Assembly: GCA_030611945.1 (NCBI GenBank)
Contig: JAUWOV010000096.1
Span: 1-5,436, forward strand
Source of the DNA: a bacterium
GTDB taxonomy: Bacteria > JAHJDO01
Length of the DNA stretch: 5,436 nt
Direction: 5' to 3'
The position numbers and the translations under genes were made by a program. The first letter of the stretch is position 1. Each line of letters opens with the position of its first letter. Shown here in pieces: positions 3,136 to 5,419 of this stretch. Under the pieces are notes generated by a model. It was not told the DNA's origin, did not search any database, and worked only from the letters and a program-made list of their open reading frames with translations.

Positions 3136-3555
3136 TTATTTGGCAGGATTAGATCGCCCCTCACATTTCCAACACGCACAATTACTATAAATCCCTCCTG
3201 CGTTTTTCAGCCTTGGGCACTGTCCAATTTTTATCATGCAGGCCCCTAAGCGATTTTTGTATTGAATATGAGGATTTTTCATTATTGCCTGAACTATTTT
3301 AGCCTTTGAAACACCCAGTTCCTTCAGTCTTTCTACGCACCACATAGAATGACCATCGTTTTTATGCGTAGGTTCGTTAACATAAGCCTTAACTTCTGCT
3401 TGATCTTTGTAATTAAGCCAGGCGCGCATATCCCAAAGACTTGGATTCTTTTCCAGATAGCCAAGATAATAATCTGCGCTTTTATATCCAATTCCGGATG
3501 TAGGTCCCTGATTTACCTGCGGGCTGGTTTTGAATAGCTCTTTCTGTTTATTCAT
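3136..3555 (-). CDS. Unrecognised protein with C-terminal Cys cluster (139 aa)
   Basis: I do not recognise a family. The N-terminal part is polar; residues about 28-58 (YYLGYLEKNPSLWDMRAWLN...) and 70-95 (HSMWCVERLKELGVSKAKIV) look helical, the second possibly a helix-turn-helix-like pair. The C-terminal third has C106-x6-C113-x12-C126-x-C128-x2-C131 within basic sequence, which could hold zinc or an iron-sulfur cluster; there are more ligands than one zinc needs. Such a layout suits a DNA- or RNA-binding accessory factor, for example in replication, given the upstream dnaN, but this is inference. The start at 3555 has the SD AAAGGTGGG; the TAA of the 23-codon ORF sits directly before it. No membrane segment or signal peptide is present. 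Confidence 0.82.
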   Translation of the reverse strand: MNKQKELFKTSPQVNQGPTSGIGYKSADYYLGYLEKNPSLWDMRAWLNYKDQAEVKAYVNEPTHKNDGHSMWCVERLKELGVSKAKIVQAIMKNPHIQYKNRLGACMIKIGQCPRLKNAGGIYSNCACWKCEGRSNPAK

Positions 3556-3564
3556 TTCCCACCT

Positions 3565-3636
3565 TTACCTTTTAAAGATTTTAAAAGCGTACGCTTGGTC
3601 TTTAGATTCTAATGTTTTAATTGCTTTTAATACCAT
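3565..3636 (-). CDS. Possible 23-aa mini-gene or leader peptide
   Basis: ATG 3636 is preceded by GAGGGAG with an 8-base spacer and encodes MVLKAIKTLESKDQAYAFKI plus FKR, ending in TAA directly before the SD of the 139-aa gene. It is the first ORF after the promoter-like motif at 3672-3703. The basic helical peptide may be a genuine microprotein, or a leader that controls entry to the 139-aa gene by coupling. The well-placed SD and the stop/SD junction, both like those of neighbouring genes, support translation. No relative is known to me. Confidence 0.5.
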   Translation of the reverse strand: MVLKAIKTLESKDQAYAFKIFKR

Positions 3637-3651: not shown

Positions 3652-3671
3652 TATCGTTGTTTATTCTTCTG

Positions 3672-3703
3672 CTTATATAACAGCTTCAGAAAGGACTTTA
3701 GAC
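3672..3703 (-). promoter_or_regulatory. Promoter-like two-box motif, copy 1
   Basis: The minus strand reads GTCTAAA (3703-3697), 13 unconserved bases, then CTGTTATATAAG (3683-3672). Read as a promoter, TATATA at 3679-3674 is a -10 with an extended TG, and TCTAAA is a weak -35 at 17-base spacing. Transcription would start near 3667, about 30 bases before the 23-codon ORF. Both boxes and their spacing recur exactly at 5062-5093. It would drive the small-gene cluster downstream of dnaN. Confidence 0.7.
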
Positions 3704-3734
3704 TGGACTATTTTAGAAAAACTTAGTGACTGGA
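3697..3734 (-). repeat. Short direct repeat TCCAGTC upstream of promoter copy 1
   Basis: TCCAGTC occurs twice on the minus strand, at 3734-3728 and 3707-3701, each followed by a TAA(A)G-type end (ACTAAG versus TAAAG). The inner copy runs into the upstream box of the promoter-like motif. It may be an operator, or a decayed duplication of the box. At 7 bases in AT-rich DNA, chance remains possible. Confidence 0.35.
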
Positions 3735-3742
3735 TTTTTTAA

Positions 3743-4801
3743 TCAAAGCTTGACAGGCATTATGATGTGGGTAAAATCGTCTTTTTTAATTACGATTGGG
3801 GAATTTACGTCTTTCCCTAATTCAAGGGCAACTTCTCCACTTACTCTTTTCAATGCCTCCATTAAGAGAACAGGATTTATAGCAAACTTCTTTTCTTCCT
3901 TATTTTTAATAACCATTTCCTCGTTAGCCATTTTCCCTGCTTCACCTGTTTTAAACACAACAGAATCTTTCACAAAAGCAATTTCTACTACACTTTCATT
4001 GATCAGTTTCATTCTTTTAAGTATGTTTATCAATTCCTCGCTGTTTATTTTTATTTTACAATCGTTCTTTGGAATTATCGCCTTGTAATCCGGAAACTTC
4101 CCCTCTATCAACCTTGATTTGATATATGATCCATTATTTTTAAATAAGATATTTTTATCTGTTATTTGCACCTCTGCTTTTCCATCAATCTTTGAAATTT
4201 CCCTGCAGGCATTTGTAGGCACAATACAACTTGCTTCACCTAGATTACAGGGTGTTACTGATAACCGAACCCCATTTGTCGCAACGGCATTTTCGCCGTC
4301 AAAAAACACTCCGTTTAGAGCATATCTTATTTCATCATTAGACACTGCGAACATAGTCTTATGAAGCGCTTCTTTAATATCTATTTCCATACTTGTTTTC
4401 GCTTCTAAATTTTCAATCTTTGGGAAATCTTTAACCTTTACTAACGGCAATCTATATTTGCCTTTATCGGTTTTTAGTAAAAGCGCACCTGTTTTTTCTT
4501 TTCCCTTTTCTTTTTCCGCATCTTTTTTCTCTACTTCCAAGCTGATCATTTCAACATCAATCTCTTTTACCAAGCCAAATAAATCTCTGTGTGAAACAAG
4601 GATAGTCCCTTCTTTTTCTACTTCACACTCAATGCTTTTCCCCAGTGTTATTTCGAGATCAGTTGTTACGCACTCTAGTTTTCCTTCTCTTGCAGACATT
4701 TTTACACATTCTAAAACAGGTAGAGCATTCTTTTTGCCAGCAGCCCCGCTACAATACGCAAGCGCATCAATCAGATTTTCTTTCTTTACAGTTATTTTCA
4801 T
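3743..4801 (-). CDS. dnaN: DNA polymerase III beta subunit (sliding clamp)
   Basis: The product is the ring-shaped clamp that tethers a replicative polymerase to DNA. At 352 aa it is slightly shorter than the usual 365-380, with all three clamp domains present. Seen: LPVLECVKM and VTTDLEI (residues 28-51) in domain I; NDEIRYALNGVFFD and VATNGVRLSV (155-182) in domain II; SRLIEGKFPDYKAIIPK (229-245) leading into domain III; and SPIVIKKDDFTHIIMPVKL at the C-terminus. Pieces of the partner-binding pocket are recognisable (T175, G177, R179, L180 and the MPVKL end). Domain I carries an extra Lys/Glu-rich loop at about 91-104. The ATG at 4801 has AGGAG 8 bases upstream. There is no dnaA, recF or gyrB beside it, so this is not the chromosomal oriC locus but probably an element-encoded clamp. 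It lies 31 bases after the PnuC-like gene and is probably co-transcribed from promoter copy 2. Confidence 0.97.
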   Translation of the reverse strand: MKITVKKENLIDALAYCSGAAGKKNALPVLECVKMSAREGKLECVTTDLEITLGKSIECEVEKEGTILVSHRDLFGLVKEIDVEMISLEVEKKDAEKEKGKEKTGALLLKTDKGKYRLPLVKVKDFPKIENLEAKTSMEIDIKEALHKTMFAVSNDEIRYALNGVFFDGENAVATNGVRLSVTPCNLGEASCIVPTNACREISKIDGKAEVQITDKNILFKNNGSYIKSRLIEGKFPDYKAIIPKNDCKIKINSEELINILKRMKLINESVVEIAFVKDSVVFKTGEAGKMANEEMVIKNKEEKKFAINPVLLMEALKRVSGEVALELGKDVNSPIVIKKDDFTHIIMPVKL

Positions 4802-4832
4802 GGCTTTTACTCCTATTGTTTTATTCCTTCTT

Positions 4833-5039
4833 TCATTTCCATGTTAAAAATCCATAAATTGCCAGTCCCAAATATATAGTGAATAAACAACTTTGTGCGT
4901 ATTCCTTCTTTTTATAGTTATAGCCAGTCCAAAATATATTGCTCGCAATCCAACACGCAAATCCCCAATGATTCATTTTAATATTCAACACAACACCAAC
5001 AATACTTACCAAGGTTATAATCCACGTTATAATCCGCAT
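4833..5039 (-). CDS. PnuC-like small membrane protein (68 aa, three helices)
   Basis: Three hydrophobic segments at residues about 3-20, 24-41 and 48-65 are separated by short polar turns. WIITLVSIVGVVLNIKMNHW, then FACWIASNIFWTGYNY and YAQSCLFTIYLGLAIYGFLTW, resemble one three-helix half of PnuC-type nicotinamide riboside transporters (also the SWEET/SemiSWEET-like topology): Trp in the first helix, W-x-x-S-N-x-x-W in the second, AQ and Y-G-x-x-x-W in the third. Short single-repeat relatives occur in phages; if functional they would assemble as oligomers in the inner membrane. The substrate is not established, and NAD-precursor uptake is inferred from the family only. The ATG at 5039 has the SD AAAGGGGA. 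The gene follows promoter copy 2 and precedes dnaN. Confidence 0.75.
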   Translation of the reverse strand: MRIITWIITLVSIVGVVLNIKMNHWGFACWIASNIFWTGYNYKKKEYAQSCLFTIYLGLAIYGFLTWK

Positions 5040-5061
5040 TGCATATCCCCTTTCGTTTCTA

Positions 5062-5093
5062 CTTATATAACAGTAAATTCCTTATTTTTAGAC
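5062..5093 (-). promoter_or_regulatory. Promoter-like two-box motif, copy 2
   Basis: The minus strand reads GTCTAAA (5093-5087), 13 bases, then CTGTTATATAAG (5073-5062), identical in boxes and spacing to the copy at 3672-3703. It lies inside the last codons of the 118-aa gene, whose TAA is part of the TATATAAG box. A start near 5057 leaves a leader of about 17 bases, just enough for the SD of the PnuC-like gene. It probably transcribes the PnuC-like gene and dnaN. Confidence 0.7.
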
Positions 5094-5419
5094 ATCGGCT
5101 TAATCTTATATTTATATTCTGTAATCAACATTTTTCCAACATATCTTCCTGCATTATCGCAACCGTGAGGACATCCAAAGTCAATATCCAGCGGTCTATT
5201 GATTTCTTCCTGCATATACCAAACTGAATGGCAAGTATCACAGGCATACTCATACAGCCAAAGACTAAAACTCTTTTCCTGCCAAGCATTACAATCATTC
5301 ATGCTTAACTTTTTATCAATATCCCCTATCTCTGAAAATCCGCCCTCATAACATACATGTTCATCATTTTGCCTTAATAGGTATTTACAGGTTCTGCAGC
5401 ATCTTTTTATATTATTCAT
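5063..5419 (-). CDS. Cys-rich protein with two zinc-knuckle-like clusters (118 aa)
   Basis: Two Cys groups stand out. The N-terminal one is C7/C8, C11, C23 and C43 (CCRTCKYL ... HVCYEGGF ... NDCNAW), a layout common in short phage and clostridial proteins that ends in a Cys-x-x-Trp. The second is C60-x2-C63-x19-C83-x3-C87 (ACDTCHSVW ... FGCPHGC), like a zinc ribbon. Both probably bind structural zinc, so the protein is likely cytoplasmic and binds nucleic acid or protein. No named family is recognised. The start at 5419 has a GGGGGAAG-type SD close to the window edge; the promoter must lie further right. The last codons carry promoter copy 2, so the 3' end of this gene is under two constraints. 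Confidence 0.8.
   Translation of the reverse strand: MNNIKRCCRTCKYLLRQNDEHVCYEGGFSEIGDIDKKLSMNDCNAWQEKSFSLWLYEYACDTCHSVWYMQEEINRPLDIDFGCPHGCDNAGRYVGKMLITEYKYKIKPMSKNKEFTVI

Follow-up and report, generated by a model that had tools for sequence, protein, structure and literature searches.

A two-box promoter class on probable plasmid contigs of uncultured bacteria and a linked candidate ECF-type sigma factor

Introduction

Plasmid-wide regulons under the control of a plasmid's own sigma factor are nearly unknown, and a literature search gave one worked example, SigN on pBS32. SigN (ZpdN) of the Bacillus subtilis plasmid pBS32 is plasmid-encoded and drives a plasmid regulon of two-box promoters, which among the listed sites read like TTTACGTTT...CTAGATA; no such promoters were found on the chromosome, and SigN activates its own gene (PMC6751061). 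A repeated regulatory sequence also stands before several small operons, including ardC, in the establishment regulons of pLS20-family plasmids, where EGeRS1 spans 400-600 bp and contains inverted repeats, and EGeRS2 consists of a promoter between the operators of a repressor (PMC8708921).

Here we analyse a 5436-nucleotide stretch of DNA, referred to as the window, which is the entire contig C89 of the assembly G000 (1.66 Mb) and the only fragment of its element, 5.4 kb, in this assembly. The comparison covered five genomes of the window's phylum, all from one genus, among which G001 provides most of the evidence below.

Results

Two copies of the motif in the window

The first-pass annotation had described two exact copies of a promoter-like motif, each followed by N-AGAA and lying just upstream of an SD-led gene. 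The minus strand indeed has both copies of GTCTAAA-N13-CTGTTATATAAG, one at 3703-3672 and one at 5093-5062, and N-AGAA follows each of them (Table 1). By comparison, 200 dinucleotide-preserving shuffles gave zero occurrences of the 18-base pattern, and only 0.01 would be expected with three mismatches allowed. Copy 1 is followed by an SD-led ATG at 3636 (a 23-aa ORF with SD AGAGGGAG) and copy 2 by one at 5039 (68 aa, SD AAAGGGG); transcription is predicted to start at about 3668/3667 and about 5058/5057, respectively.

Table 1. Predicted promoters and genes around the two motif copies (window coordinates)
Feature	Position	Strand	Basis
Promoter copy 1 (predicted)	3668..3703	-	GTCTAAA-GTCCTTTCTGAAG-CTGTTATAT-AAG-CAGA; exact match
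Promoter copy 2 (predicted)	5058..5093	-	GTCTAAA-AATAAGGAATTTA-CTGTTATAT-AAG-TAGA; exact match
118-aa Cys-rich protein (MNNIKRCCRTCK...)	5063..5419	-	ORF; G001 orthologue C130:13989-14342
68-aa membrane protein, first gene behind copy 2	4833..5039	-	PF04973 E=1.5e-7, PnuC C-terminal part
DnaN-like sliding clamp	3743..4801	-	PF00712/PF02767, phrog_947; 88% identical to G001 plasmid clamp
23-aa short ORF (MVLKAIKTLESKDQAYAFKIFKR), first gene behind copy 1	3565..3636	-	Sequence, start call
139-aa gene, second behind copy 1	3136..3555	-	DNA 78% identical to G001 C130:16264-16501

Genes of the window

Across the Cys-rich, PnuC-like, DnaN and short genes, the window is syntenic with the 33.5 kb contig C130 of G001, and 1.7 kb align at 85% DNA identity. 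The final codons of the Cys-rich gene, which lies upstream, extend into copy 2, and this gene order is kept in G001. The membrane protein encoded next matches only the last 63 positions of the profile of PnuC (PF04973), an NMN transporter; a similar gene occurs in G001, and what is retained next to the clamp gene appears to be a membrane protein of truncated or half-size form. The clamp gene itself probably belongs to the transcript that would begin at copy 2. Behind copy 1, the 23-aa ORF is a truncated relative of a 62-aa G001 gene (orthologue C130:15842-16030). Elsewhere on the minus strand, a ThiF-like gene (E1/MoeB fold, 3-362) adjoins a RadC/JAB-domain gene (388-882), a pair that recalls the ubiquitin-like conjugation/deconjugation pairs of mobile elements.

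A promoter class with two conserved boxes and a fixed gap

A lack of further copies in the parent genome had been named as refuting the proposal. The parent assembly, which contains only the two in the window, would by itself have counted against it, whereas the same-genus genome G001, with the larger element, contains many more: a weight-matrix scan placed 15 plus-strand sites on C130 and two each on C89, C116 and C125, in addition to the two of the window. The resulting class is GTCTAA-N14-CTGTTATAT-nnn-TAGA, with at least 23 sites, in 23 of which the gap is 14 bases; a single further site (C130:25036) has a gap of 13. The same signal was found by other searches, as up to three mismatches gave 14 motif occurrences in G001 and none with the reversed control pattern, and when gapped word pairs on C130 were counted de novo, the GTCTAA/CTGTTATAT pair ranked top, with 15 observed against 0.07 expected.

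Aligning the sites narrowed the boxes as originally drawn. The GTCTAA and CTGTTATAT cores hold, while the seventh base (A in 16 of 23 sites, otherwise C, G or T) and the AAG after CTGTTATAT vary within the class, the base right after the core being free. The -35-like box is as far from TTGACA as had been noted, with GTCTAA invariant across 23 sites. Positions 33-38 prefer TAGAAA, and positions 35 and 36, at the predicted start, are purines (R) in all 23. Two boxes spaced about 23 bp start-to-start, upstream of genes and facing them, are the general arrangement of sigma-factor promoters; the housekeeping sigma-70 combination of a TTGACA-like -35, a TATAAT-like -10 and a -7 T is not what these sites have, and the -7 T is present in just one of the 23.

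Placement follows the genes closely, since every site faces a gene or gene cluster. The proposed enrichment upstream of coding-strand genes was borne out on C130, where 15 of 15 sites lie 40-80 nt before a same-strand SD-led start against a background of 12.4%, although the P value of 2e-14 is indicative because this interval was picked after viewing the sites. Orthologous sites were compared as well: copy 2 (5093) and G001 C130:14312 are identical at 16/16 box positions, 6/13 spacer positions and 12/40 upstream positions (ungapped), and copy 1 and C130:15779 at 16/16 and 9/13 positions of boxes and spacer. The boxes are conserved while spacer and upstream DNA drift, which constitutes a phylogenetic footprint.

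The spacers of the window pair are unalike, as first described, but this does not extend to the wider set, which includes ATCAAAAGTTTAT-like and GTTCTTCCTGAAG-like spacer sub-classes. Some sites have in common both the spacer and 60-190 bp of flank (the ATCAAAAGTTTAT type on C89, C130, C125, G002:C25 and the Omnitrophota contig L012), so duplication accounts for the spread of part of the class; sites within a sub-class are probably related or copied. Taken as a whole, the relatives' sites strongly support the original proposals of a promoter rather than a duplicated segment and of an element-specific promoter class, and a promoter function is well supported.

Confinement of the sites to the element

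The 21 G001 sites that have no more than one mismatch all fall on contigs C130, C89, C116 and C125; off these four, two-mismatch hits are about as frequent as with the reversed control. The other G001 contigs, a 244 kb chromosome sample, contain no motif site but carry ordinary promoters, with TTGACA-N17-TATAAT observed 10 times against 1.1 expected. Across G001 and this sample, the promoters are therefore confined to the element, as in a SigN-like regulon. Neither the plasmid sigma described below nor any site was found in the same-genus genomes G003 and G004, which encode host sigma factors. Among 384 genomes of Omnitrophota, the phylum of G005, the motif occurred in 11 against about 9 with the reversed control, and homologous genes back only the G005 site.

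Literal-motif matches elsewhere (15 in genomes and 2 viral) were rejected because 18 fixed bases would yield about that many by chance; the one exception is L012, supported by its homologous genes and by a spacer that matches. The match in Deltaproteobacteria (L018) was likewise attributed to chance, its downstream DNA looking like the coding sequence of an unrelated gene. In G002, an exact promoter copy with its flank (C25:2817-3002, L126) lies in a contig that looks chromosomal, carrying Mrp-, DnaJ- and RpoN-like genes, and adjoins a small excisionase-like HTH gene; this copy is likely left over from an integrated element.

Gene content points to a probable conjugative plasmid

C130 encodes ParA, ParB, UvrD, a recombination-directionality-like protein, ArdC, DnaN and a reverse transcriptase, while G001 C89 encodes a RepA-like initiator (RPA), TrbI, TraC, TraG (TraG_N) and type II/IV pilus proteins, with TraH assigned through the homologous copy on L127. 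Relatives of TraC are mostly on conjugative plasmids. Initiator, partition and type IV transfer genes are thus all present, spread over the separate contigs C89 and C130. On the strength of ParA/ParB, ArdC and DnaN on the syntenic C130 and of RepA, TraC/G/H and TrbI on the motif-bearing C89, a conjugative plasmid, or a set of related conjugative plasmids, is the most likely identity of the element, rather than a phage; C130, C89, C116 and C125 may not form a single replicon and may have been brought together by misbinning. A phage origin had been considered, as the window's DnaN and RadC have phage relatives, and was rejected because the larger element carries conjugation genes. No capsid, terminase or other virion genes were found among the proteins scanned, which are part of the element's proteins. 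Relatives of the window clamp also occur on plasmids, all below 60% identical, and none were found in viral contigs.

One of the C130 sites, at 10115, precedes a gene at 10172 followed by ArdC at 10404. Elsewhere on this contig (1132-2151, L055), a stand-alone reverse transcriptase (RVT_1, E=1.9e-15), possibly retron-like, adjoins an HTH_3 gene.

Two sigma genes on the motif-bearing contigs

A gene for a divergent ECF-type sigma (P0001) lies on C130 at 5442-6149, and the site cluster begins 209 bp past its end, placing the gene and 15 sites on the same contig, as SigN and its promoters share an element. A paralogue on C125 (P0002) is 50% identical in the core. Region 2 and region 4 occur in this order in both proteins, the order seen in ECF sigmas, with matches to TIGR02937 (sigma70-ECF) at residues 57-199 of P0001 (E=7e-8) and 53-206 of P0002 (9e-9); both scores fall short of the curated cut-off (42.9 bits). 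Pfam Sigma70_r2 is over its cut-off in P0001 and below it in P0002, and PHROGs assigns both to a sigma factor family (phrog_1740). No relatives were found in the plasmid, phage and viral-contig collections; one distant hit (30%) lies in an Omnitrophota chromosome without the motif. The motif was not found upstream of either sigma gene, giving no sign of autoregulation.

The leader and N-terminal segment of the two genes are about 86% alike over 264 bp (C130:4940-5708 and C125:5956-4905; L055, L060), and the first 28 codons, with SD-led in-frame starts, are near-identical, while the bodies have 50% protein identity. The shared leader is perhaps a regulatory RNA or a recombination joint.

The linkage of sigma gene and sites, their confinement to the element and their non-sigma-70 sequence together suggest that the C130 sigma recognises the motif. 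No sigma was found in the G000 element, the G005 element or the G002 chromosomal remnant, all of which have sites; this is weak counter-evidence, since these are fragments or come from incomplete assemblies. Among the readers first offered (a phage sigma, an activator or a divergent host sigma), an element-encoded sigma fits the evidence best, though one encoded by a likely plasmid and not a phage.

Discussion

A probable plasmid regulon read by its own sigma

We consider it probable that the motif serves as core promoter for a regulon spanning the plasmid, read most likely by the plasmid's ECF-type sigma. In such a model, the plasmid sigma, through its regions 2 and 4, would join the host core polymerase and recognise GTCTAA as the -35 element and CTGTTATAT as the -10 element, with centres about two helical turns apart. 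Transcription would start at a purine about 7 bases past the -10 box, leaving a leader of about 10-40 nt that holds the ribosome site. Many small transcription units could then be switched on together, independently of host promoters, and the putative regulon would comprise accessory and establishment genes, including those for anti-restriction ArdC, the DnaN clamp, the PnuC-like protein, a methylase-helicase and numerous small proteins of unassigned function, and would reach the transfer region at two points. Transcription of the sites, the start position, the sigma-promoter pairing and the timing are all predictions from sequence.

The main competitor, which we regard as unlikely, is a DNA-binding activator of the plasmid, with GTCTAA or the whole site as its operator and host RpoD using the CTGTTATAT box as an extended -10 (TGnTATAT). 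The TG one base ahead of TATAT does resemble an extended -10, genes for HTH proteins are present on C130 (HTH_3 at 851 and HTH_17 at 31583), and fixed spacing would also be compatible with an activator. However, 22 of 23 sites lack the -7 T expected for sigma-70, and the linked sigma would account for the two-box core without a further factor. The site is also directional and has no dyad; a dyad operator was rejected, because the right box conserves its CTG while the corresponding side of the left half-site varies freely, and each site has a defined orientation.

Recognition by a divergent sigma of the host itself seems improbable. Several ECF-like sigmas are indeed encoded in the host genomes, yet G001 has no site with zero or one mismatch off the element, G003 and G004 combine host ECF-like sigmas with zero sites, and the Omnitrophota genomes stay at control level save for the element-bearing G005. 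Still less probable is that the motif is no transcription signal but a spread repeat, a recombination or integration site, or an element acting at the RNA level in processing or translation control. The copies with common flanks, one of them in the chromosomal contig of G002, do indicate that some were moved or duplicated, but most have the boxes alone in common, and their constant placement before start codons and the purine start region argue against it. Nor does the RNA version fare better: folding of sites and flanks is not in excess (mean z -0.19 against -0.34 for background), and there is no Rfam match. A single-stranded-DNA promoter of a leading region, active only upon entry into a recipient, is hardly credible, for the co-orientation of 15/15 C130 sites in the ArdC region, as in leading regions of F-like plasmids, is not accompanied by the stable hairpin that an Frpo-type promoter requires, none being predicted.

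Possible spread between phyla

The 5.1 kb contig L012 (C115 of G005, Candidatus Zapsychrus exili, Omnitrophota) is 88% identical in DNA to G001 C89:19145-24122, holds a TraH-TraG stretch and has the same promoter at the same gene, while the RpoD proteins of the two hosts share only about 44% identity. L012 is either a recent inter-phylum transfer or a misbinned contig. We tentatively raise the possibility, which at present we would not favour, that the plasmid family moves between phyla with a private transcription system, consisting of a divergent ECF-type sigma and more than 20 promoters of the new class. If so, establishment and transfer genes could be expressed wherever the host's core polymerase accepts the plasmid sigma, the promoter language of the host would be irrelevant to plasmid expression, and the Omnitrophota copy would be an instance of such a transfer. 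This might explain how a plasmid can be independent of host promoter preferences. The promoter class and the linked sigma offer a directly testable sigma-promoter pair from uncultured bacteria, and the motif provides a handle for recognising fragments of the plasmid in metagenomes.

Comparison with known systems

Like housekeeping sigma-70 promoters, the sites have two boxes at about the same distance and a TGn ahead of a TATA-like box; unlike them, they have GTCTAA at -35, a fixed gap and no -7 T, in contrast to the TTGACA-N17-TATAAT of the host chromosome. The plasmid sigmas share the region 2 and region 4 architecture of ECF sigmas (TIGR02937/TIGR02985), matched nearly end to end, but score below the curated cut-offs of these families, and CTGTTATAT at -10 and GTCTAA at -35 are presumably not usual ECF boxes. 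The nearest precedents are SigN of pBS32 in function and the pLS20 regulons in layout, the latter with other mechanisms. With the pLS20 regulons the element shares a repeated sequence before several small operons, including ardC, and mostly unknown small proteins; it differs in that the repeated unit is a 36-bp two-box core without folding, with a sigma gene linked to it. As with SigN, a plasmid sigma gene accompanies two-box promoters confined to the plasmid, and both sigmas are weakly similar to known ones; SigN, however, activates its own gene, whereas the motif is absent before the C130 and C125 sigma genes, and its promoters differ in sequence. The promoter sequence described here agrees with neither the SigN nor the pLS20 systems.
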